Origin: Ignavibacteriota bacterium
GTDB lineage: Bacteria; Bacteroidota; Ignavibacteria; UBA10030; SZUA-254
Assembly (NCBI GenBank): GCA_025358305.1
Contig: JANYJZ010000042.1
Coordinates: forward strand, 1 to 48,951
Reading direction: 5' to 3'
DNA length: 48,951 nucleotides
The notes below the pieces were generated by a model. It made no database searches and was not told the origin of the DNA. It saw nothing but the letters and a program-made list of their open reading frames with translations. How positions within the stretch are numbered: position 1 is the first letter of the stretch; the number at the start of each line of letters is the position of its first letter. Of the stretch, positions 7,491 through 19,626 are shown in pieces. Position numbers and translations under genes: made by a program.

Positions 7491-9002
7491 CTAGTCCTCG
7501 CATTTGAGACCCAGCACCTCTAAGCCCTTTTGGGCATCCTTCGCCTGCGGCGTATTCGGGCAGGTCTTGAGGACCTTGCAGTAGTACTTCTTGGCCTCTT
7601 CCTTGTTATTGCTGTTCTGGTTCGACTGTGCGATCCAGAGGAGCACCTGGCAATCCTTCGGAGCGAACTCGAGCGCTTTCTTGAGCACCTCGACCGCCTT
7701 TGCGTATTTCTTGTCGAGGAGGTACTGGACGCCGATCATGCGGTAGGCTTCCGCCTTGTGGCCGTCATGAACGTTCGTCGTTGCGTTCGCTGTATCGGCT
7801 GCAATGAGATCCAGCACTTTCTGGTATGCATCGACCTTCTTCGTGTCCTCGCTCAACTGTGCGTAGTCCTGCGCGAGTGTAAGCCAAGCCTGGATATTGT
7901 CGGGGCGCCTGTCGATCGCCCCCTGGATATGGGCGAGGGCAGCCTTGAACTCCTTGATCTGCATCAGAGACATGCCCGCATTCAAGTGCGATGCGAACTG
8001 GAATCCCGTCGTCGTATCGCATGCGATCTTCTTCTCGAACATTGCGATGGCTTCGCGCCATTTCTTCAGTTTCATGTAGAAAGTGCCAAGATCGTATGGC
8101 ACATCGCAGGCGGAAGTATCCTTTCGATAGGCCCGCTCCATGATATCGGTCGCCTTGACATAGTCATCCTGCGACTTGAGTGCGATGGCGTACGCTTTGA
8201 GCTTGTCGCGGTCGAGAGAGTCCGCATTCACCGTACCGAACAGATCCGCCGCCTTTTTCAGGTCGCCCGGCTCGTTCCTTCGTTTGTACGCACCTGCGAG
8301 GGCCTCCTTCACATCCTGACTATCCTTGTTCAACGTGAGGATATGCTCGCCCACCTCAATGATGAGCGCGTATTCCTTGATCTCTTCCAGGGCTTTGAAA
8401 TAACTCATCTGGGTGGTAAGATCGGTCGGCTTCATCTTCGCGAGCATCCCGAGGACGCGCGCGGCGTTCGCCCACTGCTTGCCCCTCGTATAGAGACTGG
8501 CGAGTTCCGTCAGCGCCTTTTCGTTCACCGTATCAAGTTTGACGATCTGAGTATAGGCCGTGGCCGCTTCGGTGTACATCCGGGCCTTTTTGCTCGCATC
8601 GCCGAGCTTCATGAGGAGCGGGACGTTCGTCGAGTCGAGCTCGGAGGCCCGCTTGAACTGCTGGATGGCGGCCGCCGAGAGCTTCTGCGAGGCATAGACA
8701 TCGCCCATGAGTTCGTAGATGAGCGCGTTCTTCTCGTCGAGATCGCGCGCCTGGACGAGCGCCGCTCCGGCCTGGTCGAGCGACTCGGCCTTGAAGAAGG
8801 CCATGCCGAGCCAATAGAACGCCTGGGCGTTCTTCTTGTCCTTCTTGGCCGCATCCCGGAGATCGTCGATCGCCTTGAGGAAGTTGCCGTTCTTGATAGC
8901 CTCTTTCCCGACGTCTACCCCATCCTGGGCCCGAAGGGCAGGAGCGAGTGTCAGGAACGCCGCGAGGAGAGTGATGGAAAGTTTCATAGACGCCTTCATC
9001 AT
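7491..9002 (-). CDS. Exported TPR-repeat protein
   Basis: 503 residues: a signal peptide (LSITLLAAFLTLAPALRAQ) then tandem tetratricopeptide repeats through nearly the whole length, recognisable as repeated A..W..LG.A.....Y..A...F..A..LD patterns (for example NAQAFYWLGMAFFKAESLDQ and CQVLLWIAQSNQNSNNKEEA). This is a periplasmic protein-protein interaction scaffold. Its start overlaps the stop of the phosphate-binding-like lipoprotein gene by 4 nt, which implies translational coupling, and it is the last gene before the operon terminator. In related phyla, TPR proteins accompany ExbB/ExbD/TonB sets; the partner is unknown. ATG at 9002 and in-frame ATGs at 8999 and 8987 are alternative starts. 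Confidence 0.85.
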   Translation of the reverse strand: MMKASMKLSITLLAAFLTLAPALRAQDGVDVGKEAIKNGNFLKAIDDLRDAAKKDKKNAQAFYWLGMAFFKAESLDQAGAALVQARDLDEKNALIYELMGDVYASQKLSAAAIQQFKRASELDSTNVPLLMKLGDASKKARMYTEAATAYTQIVKLDTVNEKALTELASLYTRGKQWANAARVLGMLAKMKPTDLTTQMSYFKALEEIKEYALIIEVGEHILTLNKDSQDVKEALAGAYKRRNEPGDLKKAADLFGTVNADSLDRDKLKAYAIALKSQDDYVKATDIMERAYRKDTSACDVPYDLGTFYMKLKKWREAIAMFEKKIACDTTTGFQFASHLNAGMSLMQIKEFKAALAHIQGAIDRRPDNIQAWLTLAQDYAQLSEDTKKVDAYQKVLDLIAADTANATTNVHDGHKAEAYRMIGVQYLLDKKYAKAVEVLKKALEFAPKDCQVLLWIAQSNQNSNNKEEAKKYYCKVLKTCPNTPQAKDAQKGLEVLGLKCED

Positions 9003-9937
9003 TGTATGCTGTTGTTGGTCGTTTCGACAAGCCTGACCGGCATCGTTGCCGGCACCAGCCCGCTGTTAAGTACGATCTTCTGGCCCGGGCCGCTCGTGAT
9101 GAACGAGGTGAACCCGGCCGCCACGCCGTAGTTATCCGCGCGGGAGTAGATGTAGACCACGCGCGGGATCGGATAGTATCCCTGGTAGACATAGGCCTGG
9201 TACGGCGCAAAGAACTTGCCGCGCGTCCCCAAGGAATCCGCGGCATCCGGGTCGGCGAGCTCTAGTATGCGCACCTGGTCGCCTTTGTCCTTGAGCCAGT
9301 TCATCCCGACAAGCCCGATCGCATCGGGGTCCTTCACGACGTCCTGGATCATCTCCGGGGACGAACCGGCGATCTTGGCCGGATGCGCGAAGACGCCGCC
9401 GTGGAGGATCTTTACGACGACGACCTCGTGGGTGGCGGTGTTGATGTCGGGCAGGACGAGCGAGATCTTCGACGTCATCTTCGCCGCGCCGAGCTCGCTC
9501 CACCGGGTCACCGTCCCTTTGAGGAGGCTGTCGAGTTGCGTCGTCCGAAGCCGGCGCAGAGGGTTTTCGTTGTTCACGATCACCGCGACGGCGTCGATGG
9601 CGATCTTGTGCTCGTGCACCGCGAGATGGAACCGGTCCTTGACCGCGATCTCTTCCGCGTTGAGCGGCCGGGCGCTCACGATGACCGTGATACTGTCGTT
9701 AAAGAGCCGCGCGATCGCTTCCCGGTCCGAGGAGACCTCGATGTCGATGTGCGCCTGCGCGTATAGCTCCTCGAAGGTCGCCTTCTCCTGCTTCATCAGG
9801 GGAGCGACCGATTCGGACACCACCATCGTCACTCGGCCCTTCGTCGGCGTCTCGGGCGGTTCGCCCTGACACCCGGCCAAGAGCATGAGACACGTCAGTG
9901 CCGTGATCAGTGCGCCGTTATGTCGGTTCCGTGTCAT
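8999..9937 (-). CDS. PstS-like substrate-binding lipoprotein
   Basis: 312 residues. A lipobox (LMLLAGC, Cys at about residue 23) ends the signal peptide. The rest matches the periplasmic binding-protein fold of phosphate-binding PstS: an N-terminal lobe with ARLFNDSITVIVSARPLNAEE, then DAVAVIVNNENPLRRL, the WSELG segment, and a late IGLVGMNW and PRVVYIYSR region. No pstC, pstA or pstB is adjacent. Instead the gene is embedded in a TonB/ExbBD operon, overlapping the small membrane gene by 20 nt and the TPR gene by 4 nt. It may sense or capture a ligand for the complex; actual phosphate binding is unproven. Confidence 0.8.
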   Translation of the reverse strand: MTRNRHNGALITALTCLMLLAGCQGEPPETPTKGRVTMVVSESVAPLMKQEKATFEELYAQAHIDIEVSSDREAIARLFNDSITVIVSARPLNAEEIAVKDRFHLAVHEHKIAIDAVAVIVNNENPLRRLRTTQLDSLLKGTVTRWSELGAAKMTSKISLVLPDINTATHEVVVVKILHGGVFAHPAKIAGSSPEMIQDVVKDPDAIGLVGMNWLKDKGDQVRILELADPDAADSLGTRGKFFAPYQAYVYQGYYPIPRVVYIYSRADNYGVAAGFTSFITSGPGQKIVLNSGLVPATMPVRLVETTNNSIQ

Positions 9938-10256: not shown

Positions 10257-10994
10257 CTATTTGTTGAGCTTGAACCTGAACGGCATTGACGCCCACACCG
10301 CGACGGGACCATTGTTCATCATCGCAGGGGTGAAAACGAACTGCAAAGCGGCGTCGATGGCGTACTGGTTGAAGACATCCTCGTCGCTCTTCATGATCAA
10401 GGCCTTCTTGGCTTTTCCCGTCTTATCGACGAGGATCCTTACCCATACCGTACCTTCGATGCCGGCACGTTTCGCGATATCCGGATATTCGGGTGCTACC
10501 ACCTTCACCGGGACGGGGGGCAATTCCACCGGCAGGAATATCGGCGGATCCTCGTCCTCGATCTTCACCTCAGGCGGAGCCGGGACGGTTCCCGCCGTCG
10601 TTCCGGTCCCCGAACTCGTTCCGATCGGAGAGGTATCCCAGAAGTTATTCTGGGTCGGGATCGTCTGTTCCATCCGGACTTCCGGGTCCGGCACAGGCAC
10701 GGGAACCCCCGGGATCTCCTTGACAGCGGGTGCGGATACGCGCACCAGTGGGGAAGCATCGGTGTTCATGATCGACGGCGGCTGTACGAGCTGCCAGATG
10801 TTGATCTTATTGACGATCGAGGCGGGTGTTTCTACTGCGAAAAAAGTCCCCACCATGTAGTAGACCCCGATGGCGCTCAGGTGCGCGACGACGGCGATCA
10901 AGAGCGCGATCGTCGCATAGCGCTGATAGAGCTCGCGAAGTTCCCGAATACCGTAGCGCCCGCCAGATCCCGCAAATACTGTCTGCACTGTCAT
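10257..10994 (-). CDS. TonB family energy transducer (copy 1)
   Basis: 245 residues. An N-terminal cytoplasmic stretch (GRYGIRELRELYQRYATIA) leads into one membrane anchor at about 29-49, then a proline- and valine-rich periplasmic linker (VPVPVPDPEV, PPVPVKVV) and a C-terminal TonB domain (APEYPDIAKRAGIEGTVWVR ... DAALQFVFTPAMMNNGPVAV). TonB couples the proton motive force harvested by ExbB/ExbD to outer-membrane transporters. It is clearly a paralogue of the gene just upstream: the membrane region and the whole C-terminal domain are nearly the same, while the linker differs. The 150-nt gap between the two copies is longer than other gaps in the operon. Confidence 0.92.
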   Translation of the reverse strand: MTVQTVFAGSGGRYGIRELRELYQRYATIALLIAVVAHLSAIGVYYMVGTFFAVETPASIVNKINIWQLVQPPSIMNTDASPLVRVSAPAVKEIPGVPVPVPDPEVRMEQTIPTQNNFWDTSPIGTSSGTGTTAGTVPAPPEVKIEDEDPPIFLPVELPPVPVKVVAPEYPDIAKRAGIEGTVWVRILVDKTGKAKKALIMKSDEDVFNQYAIDAALQFVFTPAMMNNGPVAVWASMPFRFKLNK

Positions 10995-11144: not shown

Positions 11145-11876
11145 CTATTTATTCAGCTTGAACCGGAAGGGCATTGCCGCCCACACCGCGACGGGACCGT
11201 TGTTCATCATCGCCGGGGTGAACACCATTTGCATTGCCGCCTTGATCGCGGGTTCGTTGAAGATTTCCGCATCGCTCTTCATGACCAAGGCCTTCTTGGC
11301 CTTTCCTTCCTTGTCCACGAGGATCTTCACCCAGACCGTTCCTTCAATGCCGACGCGCCGCGCGATATCGGGATATTCGGGCACGACCTGCTTCACGGGA
11401 ACGGGCTGTTTTTCCACCGGCACGAAGTCCGCGGGCTCTTCGTCCTCGATCTTGATGTCCTGCTGGACCTGGACGTTGCCGCTGCCGGCCCCTTCACTCG
11501 ACGCAGGGGCGGAGATCTCCGAGAGCTCCTTCTGCGACGCGATCGTCTGTTCCGGGTTCACTTCCGCGTCCGGGACAGGCACGGGAACGCCGACGGTCGG
11601 CTTCGCGACAGGCACGGAGACCTGCACCTGCGGGGCCGCTTCGGTGTTCGTGATCGACGGCGGGGGGCCGAGCTCACTGTACTTCATGATCCGTACCAAC
11701 GCGACATGTTCATCATCCTGGGAGAGGATCCCCACAATGTAGTAGGCACCGATGGCGCACAGGTGCGCAATGACCGCGATAATGAGCGCGATCGTTGCAT
11801 AGCGCTGGTACAGCCCGCGCAGTTCCCGCATACCATAGTGTGCCACTGATTCTGCAGCAACAGCTTTCACTGCCAT
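11145..11876 (-). CDS. TonB family energy transducer (copy 2)
   Basis: 243 residues with the same plan as copy 1: juxtamembrane HYGMRELRGLYQRYATIA, an anchor at about 29-49, a Pro/Val-rich linker with an acidic IEDEEPADFVPVE part, and a C-terminal TonB domain (VPEYPDIARRVGIEGTVWVK, then MVFTPAMMNNGPVAVWAAMP). It follows the second ExbD by 12 nt, so it is the copy most tightly tied to the motor genes. A recent tandem duplication is the simplest origin. The two differ mainly between the anchor and the C-terminal domain, which may suit different outer-membrane receptors. Confidence 0.92.
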   Translation of the reverse strand: MAVKAVAAESVAHYGMRELRGLYQRYATIALIIAVIAHLCAIGAYYIVGILSQDDEHVALVRIMKYSELGPPPSITNTEAAPQVQVSVPVAKPTVGVPVPVPDAEVNPEQTIASQKELSEISAPASSEGAGSGNVQVQQDIKIEDEEPADFVPVEKQPVPVKQVVPEYPDIARRVGIEGTVWVKILVDKEGKAKKALVMKSDAEIFNEPAIKAAMQMVFTPAMMNNGPVAVWAAMPFRFKLNK

Positions 11877-11888
11877 GGCTAGCTCTCC

Positions 11889-12386
11889 TTATGAGGATAT
11901 TTGGTCGAGAATTTTCCTGTCACCGTCCTGCATCGGGGCAAGACTGAACCGCGTGATATTCGCCAGGTTCAACTCGTCCATCACGTCGACCATCATGTGG
12001 TACTTGCCTTTGCGGTCGACCTTGATGAGCGTGATGAGCTTGGGGTTTGCTTGGGACTGACGGACCATGAGCGCGCGAAGTGCCTTGTACTCCACCTTCA
12101 CGGGCTTGTCCGTCGCCATGTTCCAGTAGATCGTGCCGTCCTCTTTCACCAGGAGGGTCAGGAGGTTGCTCTGGGCGACCTCCACCGTCGTCTTTTCCGG
12201 CGGCAGATTGATCTCCATCGTCTGGGGGCGGTTCATGGTCGTCGTCAGCATAAAGAAGGTCAGCAGAAGAAAGGCCACGTCCACCATCGGTGTATTGTCG
12301 ATCTTTACACCAAGGCGGCGCTTTTTCTTCTTCTTTCCCTTTTTGCGATCGTGTCCGCCCCGGGGGGCGGTATCGACTGATGCCAT
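11889..12386 (-). CDS. exbD: ExbD/TolR biopolymer transport protein (second ExbD)
   Basis: 165 residues: a very basic N-terminus (KKGKKKKKRRLG), the ExbD hallmark DNTPMVDVAFLLLTFFMLTT whose aspartate in MVDV is the proton-carrying residue, then a periplasmic domain ending ANITRFSLAPM. It lies 12 nt from both the upstream exbD and the downstream tonB. With ExbB it forms the proton-driven motor for TonB. Two ExbD genes in a row is common in this phylum, presumably for a heteromeric dimer. Confidence 0.93.
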   Translation of the reverse strand: MASVDTAPRGGHDRKKGKKKKKRRLGVKIDNTPMVDVAFLLLTFFMLTTTMNRPQTMEINLPPEKTTVEVAQSNLLTLLVKEDGTIYWNMATDKPVKVEYKALRALMVRQSQANPKLITLIKVDRKGKYHMMVDVMDELNLANITRFSLAPMQDGDRKILDQISS

Positions 12387-12398
12387 AGTGGTGCTCCT

Positions 12399-12863
12399 TT
12401 AGTCTTTTTTCAGATCCGTCACGAGGTTGAACCTCGTGATGTTCGTCTTCTGGAGAATGTTCATGACGTCCTCCGTGATGCCGTACTCCGCGTCCTGATC
12501 GCCCTTCACCACGGTGCGAAGCTTGGTGTTGGCGATACGGGCGCGCACGAGCATGTCGGGAAGCTCCTTCAGCGTCACTTCCACCGCCGAGCGCAGCTTG
12601 TTCTCGTCGCCGAAGATCCTCGCGGTCATCCGCTGGGAGTCAAATCCCAAGAAGATGCGGTTGTCCTTGCTGATCGTGACGAGCATGACGTCCGATTCCG
12701 GCAGCTTGAACGCCGAATGGGACGACGGGAGGATGATGGTCACCTCTTCCGCCGGCTTGAACGTCGTGGTGAGCATGAAGAATGTCAGGAGCAGAAAACC
12801 GACGTCCACCAGGGGGGTGTTGTCGATCGCGATGTTCATCCTTCGTTTTTTGATTTTAGGCAT
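12399..12863 (-). CDS. exbD: ExbD/TolR biopolymer transport protein (first ExbD)
   Basis: 154 residues with a basic start (MPKIKKRRMNIA), the single membrane helix with the essential aspartate (DNTPLVDVGFLLLTFFMLTT) and a periplasmic domain ending NITRFNLVTDL. The helix is almost the same as in the other ExbD, but the periplasmic domain is divergent, so this is an old duplication, unlike the TonB pair. It lies 15 nt after exbB and 12 nt before the next exbD. Confidence 0.93.
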   Translation of the reverse strand: MPKIKKRRMNIAIDNTPLVDVGFLLLTFFMLTTTFKPAEEVTIILPSSHSAFKLPESDVMLVTISKDNRIFLGFDSQRMTARIFGDENKLRSAVEVTLKELPDMLVRARIANTKLRTVVKGDQDAEYGITEDVMNILQKTNITRFNLVTDLKKD

Positions 12864-12878
12864 GACGCAGCCCTTCCC

Positions 12879-13658
12879 TTATTTCTGTTTGGAAGTGATG
12901 GTCTGGATCACGTCGTAGCTCGCTTCGTCAATCATGTAGGTGAAGCTGTCGACCTTGTTGACGAAGAAGTTGTACGCGACGATGCCGACGATGGCGGCGA
13001 AGATCCCAAGGGCGGTGTTGATCAGAGCCTCGGAGATACCGACGGAGAGCTGGATCGCGTCCGGAGCGCCGGCCTGGGCCAGTGCCCGAAACGCGCGGAT
13101 CATGCCGATGACCGTTCCGAGAAGCCCCAGCATGGTCGAGATCGAGGCGATCGTCGAGAGCGCGATGAGGTTCTTCTCGAGGATCGGCATTTCGAGCATG
13201 GTCGCTTCTTCGATCGCGCGCTGGACCTCAGCCATCTGCTTTTCGGCTTCGAGGCCCTTCGTGTCCCTCGTGAGCGTCTGGTAGCGCTCGAGGCCCGCGC
13301 GAATGATGTTCGCCATGGACCCGCGCTGCTGGTCGCATGCGCCGATGGCGGCTTCAAGGTCGCCGGTCGCGAGGCTCTTCTGGAGGTTCTTCAGGAACGT
13401 CGTGAGCGGACCGCGGCCCTGGGCCTTGCGAAGGGAAAGGAGGCGCTCGATGATGAACGTGATGACCATGATGGAGAGGGAGATCAACACAGGCACGATG
13501 ACGCCGCCGGTGTAGACCTGTCCCATCATGTTGTTCGGCTTCAGGCGTCCTTCACCGTCCGAGAAGTTGGACGGGCTGCCGAGGACGAACATGTAGATCA
13601 AGACCGACGTCGCGAAGGCGGCGATCACCAGAGTGACAACGAATGTTGACTGTTTCAT
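12879..13658 (-). CDS. exbB: ExbB/TolQ/MotA-family proton channel protein
   Basis: 259 residues with three membrane helices: an N-terminal one at about 5-25, an early pair partner at about 50-70 (GGVIVPVLISLSIMVITFII), and the conserved C-terminal hairpin starting IALSTIASISTMLGLLGTVI and continuing ISEALINTALGIFAAIVGIV. The LGLLGTVxGM and EALxxTAxGxxAAI motifs are diagnostic. The long cytoplasmic middle contains LEAAIGACDQQRGSMANIIR, as usual. It heads the motor genes, 38 nt behind the STAS gene. Confidence 0.93.
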   Translation of the reverse strand: MKQSTFVVTLVIAAFATSVLIYMFVLGSPSNFSDGEGRLKPNNMMGQVYTGGVIVPVLISLSIMVITFIIERLLSLRKAQGRGPLTTFLKNLQKSLATGDLEAAIGACDQQRGSMANIIRAGLERYQTLTRDTKGLEAEKQMAEVQRAIEEATMLEMPILEKNLIALSTIASISTMLGLLGTVIGMIRAFRALAQAGAPDAIQLSVGISEALINTALGIFAAIVGIVAYNFFVNKVDSFTYMIDEASYDVIQTITSKQK

Positions 13659-13696: not shown

Positions 13697-14059
13697 TTAT
13701 GAGAGTGAATCTACTTTGACAAATGCTTCCACTGCTTGATTCGGCGTGTCATACACGTCGAAGATATCGATGAGTTTCGTGACGGCGAGGAGGTTCTGGA
13801 CGTTCCCGCTCACCCCGGACACCTTCACTTCGCCGGCGTTCTTCTTGTAGCTCGCGTGCGCCGAGATGATGGCGCCGATGCCGGAGCTGTTGAGGTAGTT
13901 CACCTTCTGGAGGTTGATGACGAGGCGCAAGATCCCCTGCTCGAGGAAGTCCGCCACGGCCGAACGGAGCTGGTCCGTGTCCCCGTCGCCGATAAGGGAG
14001 CCGCGGATCTCGATGATCCCGATGGTGCCGTTCCGAGTTGTCGTTGCCTTGATGGACAT
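13697..14059 (-). CDS. STAS-domain protein, anti-anti-sigma factor type
   Basis: 120 residues forming one STAS domain like SpoIIAA/RsbV. The serine normally phosphorylated by a partner kinase lies in NYLNSSGIGAIISAH near residue 59, with the preceding strand GILRLVINLQKV. Such proteins release a sigma factor or other target when dephosphorylated. No anti-sigma kinase or phosphatase is adjacent; instead the gene sits 38 nt before exbB and about 140 nt behind a sigma-54 promoter. It is therefore probably the first gene of the TonB operon. What it binds is unknown. Confidence 0.88.
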   Translation of the reverse strand: MSIKATTTRNGTIGIIEIRGSLIGDGDTDQLRSAVADFLEQGILRLVINLQKVNYLNSSGIGAIISAHASYKKNAGEVKVSGVSGNVQNLLAVTKLIDIFDVYDTPNQAVEAFVKVDSLS

Positions 14060-14209
14060 GGTGTCCCGTGCTGGGTGAACTGTCGTGACCGGGCCGGTTC
14101 CGTGCGTGAGCGCCCGGAGGATGAGCGTGGGTCGATCGGCGCGAGCGAGAATGTGAGATGCGATGCGCCGGTACGACCGGAGAGAACCACGCTGCTACTC
14201 TCTTTGCCG

Positions 14210-14301: not shown

Positions 14302-14316
14302 CGTGCAAAATGCACG
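14302..14316. promoter_or_regulatory. Candidate activator site (palindrome CGTGCA-AAA-TGCACG)
   Basis: A perfect 15-bp inverted repeat centred about 110 bp upstream of the predicted RpoN start, within the usual range for enhancer-type sites. It is a candidate operator for the adjacent NtrC-family regulator. No spacing or binding data support it beyond position and symmetry. Confidence 0.45.
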
Positions 14317-14383
14317 ATTGGGTCGTACAGTCCGGACGCCGAAGGCTTCATTCTTTTGGGAGAGAACGACTTACGCGGGGATT

Positions 14384-14397
14384 GCACATTGCAGTGC
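14384..14397. promoter_or_regulatory. Second candidate activator half-site pair (GCAC-N6-GTGC)
   Basis: A shorter palindrome about 190 bp upstream of the predicted start, sharing the GCAC/GTGC core with the site at 14302. The two together could form an enhancer. Weaker than the first site. Confidence 0.3.
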
Positions 14398-14417: not shown

Positions 14418-15746
14418 CTAGAGTCCGTACTTCTTCCGTTTTCGCCAAAGTGTGGCAGGATCGATCGCCAGGACGCGCGCCGCCGCCTCGAGGTCGGCGG
14501 CAACGGCCAAGACGCGCGCAATGTGCTGGCGCTCGGTCTCTTCGAGCGAGAGCATGCCCGCGGGGCCCGACGGGCGTGGTTCGAGGAGCTCCGCCGGGAG
14601 GTGCGCGGGTTCGATGGGTCCGCCTCGGGCGAGGAGCACGGAGCGCTCCATGACGTTCTGGAGCTCGCGGATGTTCCCGGGCCACCGGTGCGCTGTGAGG
14701 ATCTTCAGCGCCTCGGGAGCGATCTCGGGCTCGGCCTTCGGAGAATACTTCTTCGCAAAATAATGGATGAGCAGCAAGATGTCCTCCGGCCTCTCCCGGA
14801 GCGGCGGCAGCGTGATCCGTACAGCGTTGAGGCGGTAGTAGAGGTCTTCGCGGAAGCTCCCCTCCTCGAGCGACTCGGAGAGCTTCCTGTTCGTCGCGGC
14901 GAGGATACGGACGTCGACCTTCCGGACGACGTTCTCCCCGACCCGCTCGAACTCCCGGTTCTGGAGGAAGCGCAGGAGCTTCACTTGGGTCGACTGGGGG
15001 ATCTCCCCCACCTCGTCGAGGAACACCGTGCCGCCGGCGGCCGATTCAAAGCGCCCCTCGCGCTCTTTCACTGCGCCGGTGAAGGCGCCCTTGACATGTC
15101 CGAAGAGCTCGCTTTCCAGGAGGTTCTCGGCCAAAGCGGCGCAGTTCACCTTCACGAACGGCTTCTCGCGCCTGCCGCTTTCGCCGTGGATGAACAGGGC
15201 GAGGAGCTCCTTCCCCGTGCCGCTCTCCCCTTCGATCAGGACCGAGAGAGGGCTGTCGGCCACCTGGCGTGCGAGTTCGATCTGCCGGCGCATGAGGACG
15301 TTTCGGGTGACGATGTCGCTTTCCGAGCGCGCGGAGGCGAGCTGGCGCCGGAGTTCCCGCACCTCGTGCCGGAGCGCGTGGTGATCGAGGATCTTCCCGG
15401 CAAACAGCTGGAGTTCCTTCAGGTCGAACGGCTTCTGGATGAAGTCGAACGCGCCGTTCTTGATCGCCTCGACCGCGCTGTCGATCGAGCCGTGCGCCGT
15501 GACCATGACCGCCGTGGTCGAGGGGGAGCGCTGGCGAAGCTCCCGGAGGACCTGCATCCCGTCGATCGGCTGCATCATGAGATCGATGAACGCGATGTCG
15601 TACGCGTCGGGCGTGAGCTGTTCGAGCGCTTCGACGGGGTTCGAAAACCCGTCAACGGAGAAGCCGATGGCCTCGAGGCCGATTTTGAGGGTCTTGAGGA
15701 TGTTCGGCTCGTCGTCGACGACGAGGACCTTTCCGCGCGGCGTCAT
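14418..15746 (-). CDS. NtrC-family sigma-54-dependent response regulator
   Basis: 442 residues: a receiver domain (1-118, phospho-acceptor Asp55 in IAFIDLMMQ), an AAA+ domain with Walker A GESGTGKE and the GAFTGA loop that contacts sigma-54 (LFGHVKGAFTGAVKERE), the switch RILAATNRKL and the arginine-finger REDLYYRLN segment, and a C-terminal Fis-type helix-turn-helix (ARVLAIDPATLWRKRKKYGL). It activates sigma-54 promoters when phosphorylated. Its start overlaps the stop of the sensor kinase gene by 4 nt. Domain order and the partner kinase recall AlgB of Pseudomonas. A consensus sigma-54 promoter about 190 bp downstream is a likely target. Confidence 0.93.
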   Translation of the reverse strand: MTPRGKVLVVDDEPNILKTLKIGLEAIGFSVDGFSNPVEALEQLTPDAYDIAFIDLMMQPIDGMQVLRELRQRSPSTTAVMVTAHGSIDSAVEAIKNGAFDFIQKPFDLKELQLFAGKILDHHALRHEVRELRRQLASARSESDIVTRNVLMRRQIELARQVADSPLSVLIEGESGTGKELLALFIHGESGRREKPFVKVNCAALAENLLESELFGHVKGAFTGAVKEREGRFESAAGGTVFLDEVGEIPQSTQVKLLRFLQNREFERVGENVVRKVDVRILAATNRKLSESLEEGSFREDLYYRLNAVRITLPPLRERPEDILLLIHYFAKKYSPKAEPEIAPEALKILTAHRWPGNIRELQNVMERSVLLARGGPIEPAHLPAELLEPRPSGPAGMLSLEETERQHIARVLAVAADLEAAARVLAIDPATLWRKRKKYGL

Positions 15747-17596
15747 GCGTGCTCCACATGGACCGCCGGGAGGCGGAAGGTGAACGTCGAACCCTCATTC
15801 ACGACGCTTTCGACCCAGATCGTCCCTCCGTAGAGCTCCACGATCTCCTTCGCGATCGCAAGACCCAGGCCGACGCTTCCCGGGGTCGTGCTCATGGAGT
15901 GCTTCACCTGGACGAACTTGTCGAAGATCGTCGAGAGGTATTCCGGGGCGATCCCCCGGCCGGTATCCCGGACCCGGACGACGACGTCGTCCCCACGAGA
16001 GGAGGCGGTGATCCGGACCGAGCCGCCGGCGTCGGTGTAGCGAAGCGCGTTGTTGACGAGGTTCGAGACGATCCACGAGAACTGCTGCTCGTCGCCGACG
16101 AGGATGGGCAGCTGACCCGCGAACTCCACCTCCAGGGCGACGCCTTTGTTCTTGAACTGGAGGTTCAAGGGCTCGATCGCCGACTCGATCGCCTTGCGCA
16201 TGTCGACCTGTTCCTCCCGGCGGTCGATCTTCCCTGATTCGAGCTTCGAGAGCTGGAGGAGCTCCCGGACGAGCTTCGTGAGCCGCTCGCAGTCCTGTTT
16301 CGAGGCGTTGAGAAGCTCCTCTTGGGCGTCGGTGATCGGCCCGAGGAGCCGCTGGCGCAGGATATCGACGCCCATGTTAATCGAGGTGAGGGGGGTGCGA
16401 AACTCGTGCGAGACGGCGGCCATGAAGTCGGACTTCATCTTGTCGAGCTCCTTGAACTGCGTCACATCCTGGAGGACGAGGACGACGCCGGCGCGCGAGC
16501 CGTGCGCGCCCGGGATCTCTGAGATGCGCGGGCGCATGTAGACCGGGCGTCCGAGGTACGTAAAGAGAAGGTACGGCTGGCCTGCGATCGCGGGATCGTC
16601 GGGCTTTCGGAAGATATTGAGAAGGCGTTCGTCGGCGATGCACTCACCGAGCGGCTTCCCGAGGACGGCTTGCTCGCTCAGTTGGAGGAGCTCCTCGGCG
16701 CTATGGTTGATGAGCTGGAGCGTGCCGCCCGAGTCGCAGACCATGATGGCGTCCGAGATGCTCTCGACGATCGTCTCCGACTTCTTCTTCTCCGAGAGGA
16801 TGTTCTCGATGTTCATCTCCTCGAACTTCCGGAGCCGCTCGGTCATCTTGTTGAACTCCCTGCTGAGTTCGCCCACCTCGTCGTTCGTGTTGATGTCGAG
16901 CTTCAGGTCGAGCCGGCCGCGGCCGATCCTGTGGACCGTCTCGGTGAGCCGCTCCGCCGGTTCGATGATGCGCTTCGTGAACTGGATGATCGTCAGGATG
17001 CTCAGGCCGGTGGCGAGGAAGGTCGCGAACAGGACGGCGATGATCGCCTCGTCCGAGGTCGACCGGGTCTGCCGGGCGACACGCTGCATCTGGATCTGGT
17101 TCTCCTCGATGAGCCAGAAGCAATTGTCGGAAAGGCGCTGGGAGAAGGGCCGCACCGTGTTGTAATAGTACGTCTTGGCTTCCCGCAGGTCCCCTTTCCG
17201 GGCCTGGCGCTCCAAGGGCTCGATGACGAGGAGGTAGCCTTCGTAGGTCGAACGGATGTTCTCGAGGATCGGTCCGGTCGCCGTGTCGCGGTGGTCGTAG
17301 ACCTGCTGGAAGATCTGGTAGAACTCGTCCTTCGCCTCGATGAGCTTCACGCGGCCGTCGTTGACGTCGCCGTTGAGGATGTTCGAGATCGCCTCCTCGT
17401 GGCGCTCGACGGAGCGCGTCATGTTCTCCACGATCATGACGTTCGGGTAGTTCTCCGTCAGGATGGTATTGAGGGCGTCGGTGAGCCGGTTGAAGTTATA
17501 GATCGCGTAGGACGTCGCGGCGATGTTGATCACCACCAGGACGACGTACCCGACGCCGATCTTGAACCGGAGGCTATTGAAGAAAGGTATCTGCAT
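15743..17596 (-). CDS. KinB-like membrane sensor histidine kinase
   Basis: 617 residues. Two membrane helices (about 10-30 and 187-207) bracket a helical periplasmic sensor that resembles a four-helix bundle. A HAMP domain, a PAS domain (VESISDAIMVCDSGGTLQLI), a HisKA domain with the phospho-accepting His in AVSHEFRTPLTS (about residue 395) and a HATPase domain with N, G1 and G2 boxes (NLVNNALRY, DTGRGI, GLGLAIAKEIV) follow. The layout matches KinB, the kinase of AlgB. It is co-translated with the downstream regulator (ATGA overlap). The 311-bp gap to the divergent permease gene shows no clear promoter for this strand. Confidence 0.9.
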   Translation of the reverse strand: MQIPFFNSLRFKIGVGYVVLVVINIAATSYAIYNFNRLTDALNTILTENYPNVMIVENMTRSVERHEEAISNILNGDVNDGRVKLIEAKDEFYQIFQQVYDHRDTATGPILENIRSTYEGYLLVIEPLERQARKGDLREAKTYYYNTVRPFSQRLSDNCFWLIEENQIQMQRVARQTRSTSDEAIIAVLFATFLATGLSILTIIQFTKRIIEPAERLTETVHRIGRGRLDLKLDINTNDEVGELSREFNKMTERLRKFEEMNIENILSEKKKSETIVESISDAIMVCDSGGTLQLINHSAEELLQLSEQAVLGKPLGECIADERLLNIFRKPDDPAIAGQPYLLFTYLGRPVYMRPRISEIPGAHGSRAGVVLVLQDVTQFKELDKMKSDFMAAVSHEFRTPLTSINMGVDILRQRLLGPITDAQEELLNASKQDCERLTKLVRELLQLSKLESGKIDRREEQVDMRKAIESAIEPLNLQFKNKGVALEVEFAGQLPILVGDEQQFSWIVSNLVNNALRYTDAGGSVRITASSRGDDVVVRVRDTGRGIAPEYLSTIFDKFVQVKHSMSTTPGSVGLGLAIAKEIVELYGGTIWVESVVNEGSTFTFRLPAVHVEHA

Positions 17597-17907: not shown

Positions 17908-19626
17908 ATGGAGCTTTCCACCAGCCGGCCCCGCGTTCTGGGCTGGCTCCGCAGTGCTGCAATCCTCGATGGTGACTGGGGCACAAGCATAGCGTACGTG
18001 TTGGGTATCGCGTTCTATCACGCGGGTTACTTCAGCGGCTGGCATCTGATCATGATGCTGACTTTTACGACGCTCATCGCGCTGAATTACGTCACCATTT
18101 GCCGGCTCTACCCCGGCGGAGGCGGCGTCTACAGCTCCGTCAGCCACCGTTCCCGCACGTTCGCCGTCATCGGCGCGCTCCTTCTGACGGCGGATTACGT
18201 CATCACCGCGTCGCTCTCCGTCCTCGACGCCTGCCACTATCTCGCGCTCGACTACCCGGAACTCTGGGCGATCGGCATCATTCTCTGCATCGGCGCCCTC
18301 AACTGGTTCGGCCCCCGGCACGCCGGGAGCGTCGCGATCGTCATCTCCGCCGCCACCTTGGCCGGCCTCCTTGTGCTCATCGTCATGGCCTTTCCGGCCG
18401 CCACCCGCAGCGCCCATCTGGAACTCGCGCCCGGCGGACTGGGGACGAACTGGACGTTTTTCGTGGCGATCATCCTGTCGATCTCCGGCATCGAGGCGAT
18501 CTCGAACATGACCGGGGTGATGAAGGACCCCGCCAAGAGCTCCAAGAAGGCGATCTTAAGCGTCCTGGCGAAGATCTCCATCGCGACGGTCGTCCTCGGG
18601 TTCGCGATGCTGGCGATCCCGAACTTGAGCCAGACCGAGCATAAGGAGGAGATGATCCGCTACCTTGGGGAGTTCTACGTCGGCAACTGGTTCGGGCCCG
18701 TCATCGGCGTCGTCCTCGGGTTCCTCCTCATTTCCGCGGGGAACACCGCCATCAACGATCTCATCTCCATCCAGTTCCTCATGTCGGTGGACGGGGAGCT
18801 GCCGAAGAGCCTCAGGAAGCTCAACTCGTTCGGCGTCCCGATCCTCCCTCTTGTCATCGCAACGATGATCCCGGTCGTCGTCCTTTTGGTCATCCACGAC
18901 CTCATCACGCTGTCGTCCCTCTACGCCATCGGCGTCGTCGGCGCCATCATGATCAACGTCGGCTCGACGGGAACGGACAAGACGCTCAAACTCTCCTACT
19001 GGACCCGGGGGTTCATGATCCTCTCCGCGTTCGTCCTCTTTCTCATTGAAACGACGATCGTCATCGAGAAGCGCAAGGCCGTCATCTTCGCCTCGAGCGT
19101 CTTGGTCGTCGGCCTCATCGCCCGCCAGATCGCGAAGCGCCAGGCCGGCCCGAAGGGCATCATCGAGGCCGCTCCGCCGCCGCGCCCGGCGGTCTCCGGA
19201 ATCAGGGGCGAACCGATCTCCTTTACGACGAAGATCCTCCTTCCCATCCGAGACCGGGGAGAAAGCCTTCTTCGCCAAGTGTGCGAAGAGGCGAAGGTCC
19301 ACAAGTCGTTCCTGTTCGTCCTCCACATCAACCAGGTCTCCGTCGTGGGACTCCTCCCGGAGAAGCTCGCCTCCGAGTCGTACGCCAGCCAGGATTGGAT
19401 CGGGAAGGTCTGTTCCGAATACGGGATCCCGTTCCGGGTCATGAGCATCTTCTCGAGCGACATCGGCTACACGATCTGCGAGCAGGCCGCCACACTGGGC
19501 GTCGACAAGGTCATCATGGGCGCGACGCAGCGCACCCTCGTGGAGAAGGCATTGCGGGGAGACGTGATACAAACGGTGTCGGAACTGCTGCCGGAGGAGA
19601 TCCAGCTCGCCATCTACAGGGCGTAG
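17908..19626 (+). CDS. APC-family permease fused to a universal stress (USP) domain
   Basis: 572 residues. Residues 1-420 form an amino acid-polyamine-organocation transporter of about 12 helices; the first shows the unwound substrate-binding helix (ILDGDWGTSIAYVLGIA) and GGGGVYSSVSHRS follows. After a proline-rich linker (EAAPPPRPAVSG) comes a USP domain from about residue 440 (TKILLPIRDRGESLLRQVCE ... GVDKVIMGATQRTLVEKALRGD), in which the GATxR...L.GD part resembles the nucleotide-binding loop. Such fusions are thought to tie transport to cellular energy or stress state. The substrate cannot be told. It ends 9 nt from a convergent response regulator gene. Confidence 0.85.
   Translation: MELSTSRPRVLGWLRSAAILDGDWGTSIAYVLGIAFYHAGYFSGWHLIMMLTFTTLIALNYVTICRLYPGGGGVYSSVSHRSRTFAVIGALLLTADYVITASLSVLDACHYLALDYPELWAIGIILCIGALNWFGPRHAGSVAIVISAATLAGLLVLIVMAFPAATRSAHLELAPGGLGTNWTFFVAIILSISGIEAISNMTGVMKDPAKSSKKAILSVLAKISIATVVLGFAMLAIPNLSQTEHKEEMIRYLGEFYVGNWFGPVIGVVLGFLLISAGNTAINDLISIQFLMSVDGELPKSLRKLNSFGVPILPLVIATMIPVVVLLVIHDLITLSSLYAIGVVGAIMINVGSTGTDKTLKLSYWTRGFMILSAFVLFLIETTIVIEKRKAVIFASSVLVVGLIARQIAKRQAGPKGIIEAAPPPRPAVSGIRGEPISFTTKILLPIRDRGESLLRQVCEEAKVHKSFLFVLHINQVSVVGLLPEKLASESYASQDWIGKVCSEYGIPFRVMSIFSSDIGYTICEQAATLGVDKVIMGATQRTLVEKALRGDVIQTVSELLPEEIQLAIYRA

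Follow-up and report, generated by a model that had tools for sequence, protein, structure and literature searches.

A SpoIIAA/RsbV-like STAS protein is encoded at the head of an ExbB-ExbD-TonB operon in Ignavibacteria

The anti-sigma factor antagonists SpoIIAA and RsbV (TIGR00377) are among the closest described relatives of the STAS protein treated here, and share with it the domain, the fold, the length and a phospho-acceptor serine. In SpoIIAA the residue before the acceptor serine is Asp. The operon STAS differs from these antagonists in having Asn before the serine and mostly Ala, not Gly, at position 60; its gene is tied to exbB, no gene for a kinase or phosphatase was found next to it, and a single region-3 sigma factor was matched in the host genome. 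A two-component operon of the NtrC/sigma-54 kind has the same histidine kinase, GAFTGA regulator, -24/-12 promoter and paired upstream dyads as the present locus, whereas the target operon here begins with a STAS gene. The ExbB-ExbD-ExbD-TonB-PstS-TPR loci of Bacteroidia (named by record title) are alike in ExbB and two ExbD and often in the TonB, PstS-like and TPR genes, but have no STAS gene in front. A further comparison is MlaB of the MlaFEDB lipid transporter, likewise a separate STAS polypeptide whose gene accompanies those of an envelope transporter (PMC7367683). MlaB binds MlaF with Thr52 in the interface, and the sections of that paper on MlaB propose a phosphorylation that they do not show (PMC7367683). 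The position that MlaB places in this interface is a conserved Ser/Thr in both MlaB and the operon STAS, while the MlaB partner is an ABC ATPase and the window operon encodes none. According to the same sections (PMC7367683) MlaB lacks the extra strand and the last helix of SpoIIAA, both of which are present in the model of the operon STAS.

The window, meaning the whole stretch of 48,951 nucleotides analysed here (contig JANYJZ010000042.1 of an Ignavibacteriota bacterium), carries on the minus strand between 17596 and 7491 the genes for a kinase, an NtrC-type regulator, STAS, ExbB, two ExbD, two TonB, a PstS-like protein and a TPR protein, in that order. The upstream regulators are a membrane sensor histidine kinase (15743-17596; HAMP-PAS-HisKA-HATPase by Pfam), which adjoins the response regulator also in relatives, and the NtrC-type response regulator itself (14418-15746), with a receiver domain, a sigma-54 AAA+ domain (Sigma54_activat, 1.1e-69, Pfam), a GAFTGA motif found by reading the sequence and a Fis helix-turn-helix. 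A gap of 358 nt separates the regulator gene from the STAS gene (13697-14059, minus strand, ATG start, 120 amino acids), and 38 nt further on follows exbB (12879-13658). The ExbB product belongs to the MotA/TolQ/ExbB proton-channel family (PF01618, 1.9e-32, 112.1 bits against a cut-off of 22.9) and scores under the cut-offs of the NCBIfam equivalog models for TolQ and ExbB. The two exbD genes (12399-12863 and 11889-12386; PF02472), of which the second encodes a basic N-terminal tail as judged from the sequence, precede two tonB genes (11145-11876 and 10257-10994; PF03544), the second of which is found in some relatives only. The remaining genes encode a PstS-like periplasmic binding protein (8999-9937; PBP_like_2, PF12849) and a TPR-repeat protein (7491-9002; Pfam TPR families) with a putative secretion signal by sequence reading. 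An earlier note had placed a STAS reading frame at 13697-14059, at the head of an operon whose next genes encode ExbB, ExbD and TonB. This description is borne out by PF01740 and TIGR00377 scores above cut-off for the STAS frame, by Pfam for the downstream genes and by a zero-mismatch sigma-54 site ending 151 nt before the STAS start. With STAS as its opening gene, the energy-transduction operon runs STAS-exbB-exbD-exbD-tonB-pstS-TPR. Divergent from the kinase gene lies an amino-acid-permease-like gene (17908-19626, plus strand) with a universal-stress-like C-terminal part by sequence reading and BLAST relatives in 10 other loci.

The STAS protein matches PF01740 (E=1.9e-15, 56.9 bits against a cut-off of 22.6) and the NCBIfam family of anti-sigma factor antagonists, TIGR00377 (58.9 bits against 53.45). 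All 39 members of the operon-STAS alignment match TIGR00377 at E<=0.001, the curated cut-off having been compared for the first member only. The protein falls below the cut-off of the equivalog for SpoIIAA proper (TIGR02886, 45.7 against 114.75 bits) and far below that of mlaB_1 (19.5 against 90 bits). An AlphaFold2 model built on the 39 sequences had a mean pLDDT of 90 and a pTM of 0.84, with SpoIIAA complexed with SpoIIAB and RsbV with RsbW as the nearest solved folds; sequence profiles agree, and the model carries a strand at E101-103 and a helix at H106-119. The phospho-site motif in the window is N57-S58-S59-G60. Among 84 distinct operon STAS sequences, 83 have the predicted acceptor Ser58, G144 with Pro being the sole exception, and 82 have Asn57; position 60 is Ala in 56 and Gly in 21. 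The motif had been described beforehand as intact, which is correct for the serine and not for the residue before it, Asn instead of Asp. By model and alignment, the STAS protein has the SpoIIAA/RsbV fold and retains the phospho-acceptor serine, and Ser58 is likely to be phosphorylated.

The 358-nt gap holds the sequence features that bear on transcription. The sequence TGGCACGTATCTTGCA at 14225-14210 on the minus strand has zero mismatches to the sigma-54 -24/-12 consensus and is the only match in the window at one mismatch or fewer. At least one match of this quality arose by chance in 52 of 100 shuffles, so it is the position and the perfection of the site that carry weight. We take the transcription start to lie near 14199, from the spacing rules that we assume for such promoters. 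Upstream of the promoter are two dyads of the form TTGCA-N3-TGCAA, predicted response-regulator sites (UAS) found by exact match and by alignment with relatives, one copy of TGCANNNTGCA at 14383-14393 and the other at 14304-14314, 79 nt away. These are the only two exact TGCANNNTGCA sites in the window, a number reached in 4 of 100 shuffles, and the pair is aligned, although not letter-identical throughout, in the window and nine family members (G005 left out). Two sites 75-79 nt apart were found in 13 of 25 STAS-carrying loci with the regulator, and at least one site in 19 of these 25 as against 3 of 59 STAS-carrying loci where the regulator is absent. At least one site was also found in 5 of 23 loci with neither STAS nor regulator, which speaks against strict specificity, and none occurs in any of the six regulator-carrying loci that lack STAS. 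With five duplicate loci removed, 14 of 31 loci that have the regulator show a best sigma-54 score of at least 13 within 250 nt, as against 7 of 82 that do not have it; related genomes are not independent in this comparison. A scan for sigma-70-type promoters yielded nothing useful.

The locus has both a -24/-12 promoter and an AAA+ activator with GAFTGA, as in a sigma-54 operon. Since the stretch between the regulator pair and the STAS gene holds both conserved dyads and the perfect sigma-54 site, transcription of the operon is very probably RpoN-dependent in the window genome. An RpoN-dependent signal had also been suggested in the earlier note, and is strongly indicated by the adjacent kinase/NtrC pair, the perfect promoter and the twin dyads. 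The dyads are likely to bind the adjacent NtrC-type regulator, and the promoter to drive STAS together with the motor.

The pairing of STAS with exbB extends far beyond the window genome and is therefore not private to it, as the earlier note had allowed that it might be. Among the nearest 20 relatives, 15 (G015 included) have a same-strand STAS directly upstream of exbB, G014 and G019 have another STAS type divergent from exbB, and no STAS-exbB locus was seen in G011, G012 and G017. A search of 149 genomes of the class with an ExbB profile (threshold 1e-50) gave 102 matches in 101 genomes and none in 48. STAS lies directly upstream on the same strand for 74 of the 102 matches, mostly with short gaps. 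Sixty-eight were paired by comparing ExbB with STAS matches (G144 from a separate search), and direct reading of the other 34 loci gave six further STAS, one as a tandem pair. Twenty-six matches are without STAS, namely G331, G172, the second copy in G255 and members of the families f7, f15, f9 and f8; in G191 and G277 the contig ends just upstream of exbB. The STAS-less G331, a 1.7-Mb genome with the motor, gave no STAS match at 1e-4 and no RsbW-like kinase at 1e-9. Remnants of STAS were sought with tblastn over 30 STAS-less loci and none was found except the STAS of G014 and G019. An assignment of f9 to Chlorobiaceae was dropped, the f9 ExbB being only 38-44% identical to those of two named Chlorobiaceae loci.

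The genes upstream of the operon are less constant. With named loci excluded, relatives included and at least 2.2 kb of upstream sequence, an NtrC-type regulator was matched in 23 of 74 STAS-carrying loci and not in the other 51, and in 6 STAS-less loci as against 21 without it. In ten loci where the upstream gene was typed it encodes PrmC (3), a DsbH-like protein (2), PEGA (2), a metallophosphoesterase, a receiver-domain protein or adenylate kinase. In the family of the window the kinase/regulator pair, STAS and the motor are neighbours. The neighbour that STAS keeps while the upstream genes change is therefore the motor.

When named genomes were scanned with a broad alignment of ExbB, 11 of the best 80 loci had STAS in front: three Ignavibacteria, one Kapaibacterium, one Chlorobi, four 'Bacteroidetes', one 'bacterium' MAG and one MAG labelled Eisenbacteria. 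Five of these 11 (L202, L204, L206, L222 and L269) duplicate G328, G329, G255, G349 and G073 with the same STAS sequences and are not independent; G073 belongs to the same order as the window genome. The motor is without STAS in 68 of the best 80, and L258 begins at a contig end. The STAS-less loci among these 80 include Flavobacterium, Prevotella, Pedobacter, Hymenobacter, Pontibacter and Cytophaga as well as two Chlorobiaceae and two Zixiibacteriota records. Almost all of them have ExbB with two ExbD genes, and TonB, PstS-like and TPR genes are frequent among them. None of the records whose title names an order, family or genus of Bacteroidia has STAS in front of exbB. Because the motor persists without STAS here and in 26 of the 102 class matches, STAS is not an obligatory part of it. 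No title treating a pairing of STAS or an anti-sigma antagonist with ExbB/TonB or SecDF was found among the open-access papers retrieved. The gene pairing is real, conserved and undescribed in the literature searched, the kinds of protein being known.

The phylogenetic tree comprised 103 STAS proteins, including every second of 92 operon rows. All 46 operon rows fell in one clade (99/99), and the partner-switch STAS of the window genome were placed far from it on long branches. Nested inside the operon clade were three paralogues that do not adjoin exbB (L051, L132 and L046). Those of L051 and L132 adjoin genes for GAF-SpoIIE phosphatases, which would suit a phosphorylated switch protein, and that of L046 adjoins a guanylate-cyclase/AAA gene and not a phosphatase. 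The divergent STAS beside exbB in G014 and G019 (L054 and L055) was considered as a variant of the pairing and rejected, since the tree groups it with the C27-type STAS. In these two loci a C27-like STAS stands beside exbB where the operon STAS of the family is absent, possibly as a replacement. Tandem STAS genes precede exbB in L180 (G176, 1732-2459), one of them on a long branch, and in L212 (4915-5758), a MAG labelled Candidatus Eisenbacteria. The L212 pair is nested in the Bacteroidota operon clade, which indicates either transfer between phyla or a mis-binned contig.

The window genome has nine STAS matches, ten SpoIIE matches and four matches to short RsbW-like kinases (E below 1e-16). 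The expectation that such STAS proteins sit beside a kinase holds for three of the nine, and three of the four kinases are beside a STAS; orphan STAS genes are not unusual here. The fourth kinase is itself an orphan of about 149 amino acids on contig C8 (L117:8532-8981), and this SpoIIAB/RsbW-like kinase was matched in 135 of 149 class genomes. It is a candidate for the anti-sigma partner encoded elsewhere that the earlier note named as counting against its reading. The match is absent in 4 of 74 STAS-carrying genomes (G304, G315, G333 and G345, the last with no RsbW-like kinase whatever at 1e-9), in 5 of 25 genomes with a STAS-less motor (G331, G284, G321, G219 and G235), in G277 with its contig end and in G298, G318, G334 and G347, which gave no motor match. 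Co-loss of the operon STAS and the orphan kinase is suggestive only. In family f9 the orphan kinase shares 44.5-45.9% identity with four outgroup kinases in the five genomes that keep the operon STAS and has drifted to 34.8-37.0% in three that are without it, while ExbB identity is alike across the nine f9 genomes (55.9-58.8%). By Pfam, only one STAS remains in each of the three drifted genomes. The fourth STAS-less f9 genome, G247, has a normal kinase (44.5%) and three STAS in all, so that the drift tracks the single remaining STAS and not the loss of the operon STAS as such. The orphan kinase seems to lose constraint once a single STAS is left, in three genomes that represent two or three events at most. 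A STAS of the SecDF type gave no match at 1e-10 in the drifted three, nor in G045, which has the operon STAS and a normal kinase, in a set of genomes that left out G247.

A second orphan STAS gene starts 2 nt after secF (L030:9065-9406, minus strand; G000:C31:50067-50405). SecDF, like ExbB-ExbD, is a machine driven by the proton-motive force. In the 30 best loci of the secF-linked STAS relatives SecF is directly upstream in 24 and SecD too in 22; SecF was assigned by Pfam, SecD solely from its position and sequence. The six remaining loci are L363 and, in f7, L364, L368, L369, L373 and L378. In the f7 loci this STAS precedes a gene of 422 amino acids and is divergent from a gene of about 198 amino acids, the latter an ECF sigma factor by Pfam in L364. 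The gene that follows STAS is adenylosuccinate synthetase by Pfam in L364 and in L363.

Our tentative preference, a little short of an even chance, is that the STAS protein acts on the ExbB-ExbD-TonB motor, comparably to MlaB on its transporter, as a regulator switched by phosphorylation; that it acts on the motor at all stands at about even against all the rival readings together. The adjacent HAMP-PAS kinase and NtrC-type regulator very probably turn the operon on through the two dyads and the sigma-54 promoter, and STAS, acting in the cytoplasm after translation, would turn the machine itself on or off. In its unphosphorylated form STAS would attach to ExbB or to the cytoplasmic tails of ExbD or TonB, an RsbW-like kinase encoded elsewhere would phosphorylate Ser58 and thereby detach it, and a phosphatase of the SpoIIE type would return it to the starting state. 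The two-component system would thus set the amount of the machine and STAS whether it runs, and the machine may itself be switched via phosphorylation. This reading is favoured by the pairing in 74 of 102 matches with STAS constant beside the motor despite changing upstream genes, by the single clade (99/99), by Ser58 in 83 of 84 sequences and by a model (pLDDT 90) near the SpoIIAA/RsbV folds. It is further favoured by the GAF-SpoIIE phosphatases beside two of the three nested paralogues, by the second orphan STAS behind secF of another proton-motive machine (24 of 30 loci), by the single region-3 sigma factor and by the drift of the f9 orphan kinase in three genomes that have no operon STAS. 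Counted against it are the motors without STAS, the L046 paralogue without a phosphatase, the four STAS-carrying genomes without an orphan-kinase match, the normal kinase of G247 and the absence of an ExbB position that tracks STAS loss. No column of the ExbB alignment follows that loss. Columns 1, 149 and 242 (at least 90% identity where STAS is present) change in at least three of six STAS-less groups, and a direct-contact signature was rejected because column 1 is the start codon and column 242, which changes in five STAS-less groups, also varies in five f9 genomes that keep STAS.

It is somewhat unlikely, though the strongest of the rivals, that STAS is instead a true anti-anti-sigma factor whose RpoN-dependent synthesis titrates a distant RsbW-like kinase and frees its target, a sigma factor or other protein, so that motor expression is coupled to a second regulon. 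TIGR00377 membership, the SpoIIAA-like fold and the near-invariant Ser58 suit such a relay, as do the class-wide orphan kinase (135 of 149 genomes), the ten SpoIIE matches and the ECF sigma gene divergent from the Sec-type STAS in one f7 locus examined. The earlier note had named a relay to another sigma pathway as one of its two options, and this part is weakened. The window genome gave one match to Sigma70_r3, a count that covers sigma factors other than the ECF type, which lacks region 3, and among 21 genomes 17 have one, three have two (one second match below cut-off) and one has none. Neither an RsbW-like kinase nor a SpoIIE gene was found in the sequence available around STAS-carrying loci; a phmmer search of 190 ExbB loci with the four kinases of the window genome gave one match, of 514 amino acids and 38 bits, in a STAS-less locus. 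Of the features of the partner-switching modules SpoIIAA-SpoIIAB-sigmaF and RsbV-RsbW-sigmaB, neither a kinase gene at the locus nor a second sigma of SigB/SigF type with region 3 was found, and a relay leaves unexplained why STAS stays with exbB where the regulator pair is absent or exchanged. That STAS came to lie in front of exbB by chance in an ancestral genome, where promoter and operon order have since kept it with no role in the motor, is improbable. As the 5' gene it would be retained by the upstream promoter, and it is missing from 26 of 102 matches though the motor is present; yet STAS and exbB remain joined, mostly over short gaps, in families that differ in upstream genes and promoter motifs, and a second STAS is similarly tied to secF. 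Service to the two-component pair, with STAS regulating the kinase or the NtrC-type protein and feeding the state of the motor back to transcription, is very improbable: it would fit the window's family, where pair, STAS and motor adjoin, but 51 of 74 STAS-carrying loci are without the regulator and six loci have regulator and motor and no STAS.

A regulator acting on the motor could be one case of a wider arrangement, which we regard as speculative and rather unlikely in its full form, in which STAS proteins serve across the class as phosphorylation-controlled clutches for proton-motive envelope machines, one for ExbB-ExbD-TonB and one for SecD-SecF, with a shared orphan RsbW-like kinase. To our knowledge the throttling of these spenders of the proton-motive force is hardly known beyond gene expression. 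If the arrangement is real, TonB energization and SecDF would be under post-translational control from the cytoplasm, and the two machine types would be added to the few transporters known to have a STAS regulator (MlaB, SulP/SLC26). A switch protein that keeps its phospho-site throughout the class and is encoded with each machine would make the question of throttling directly testable.
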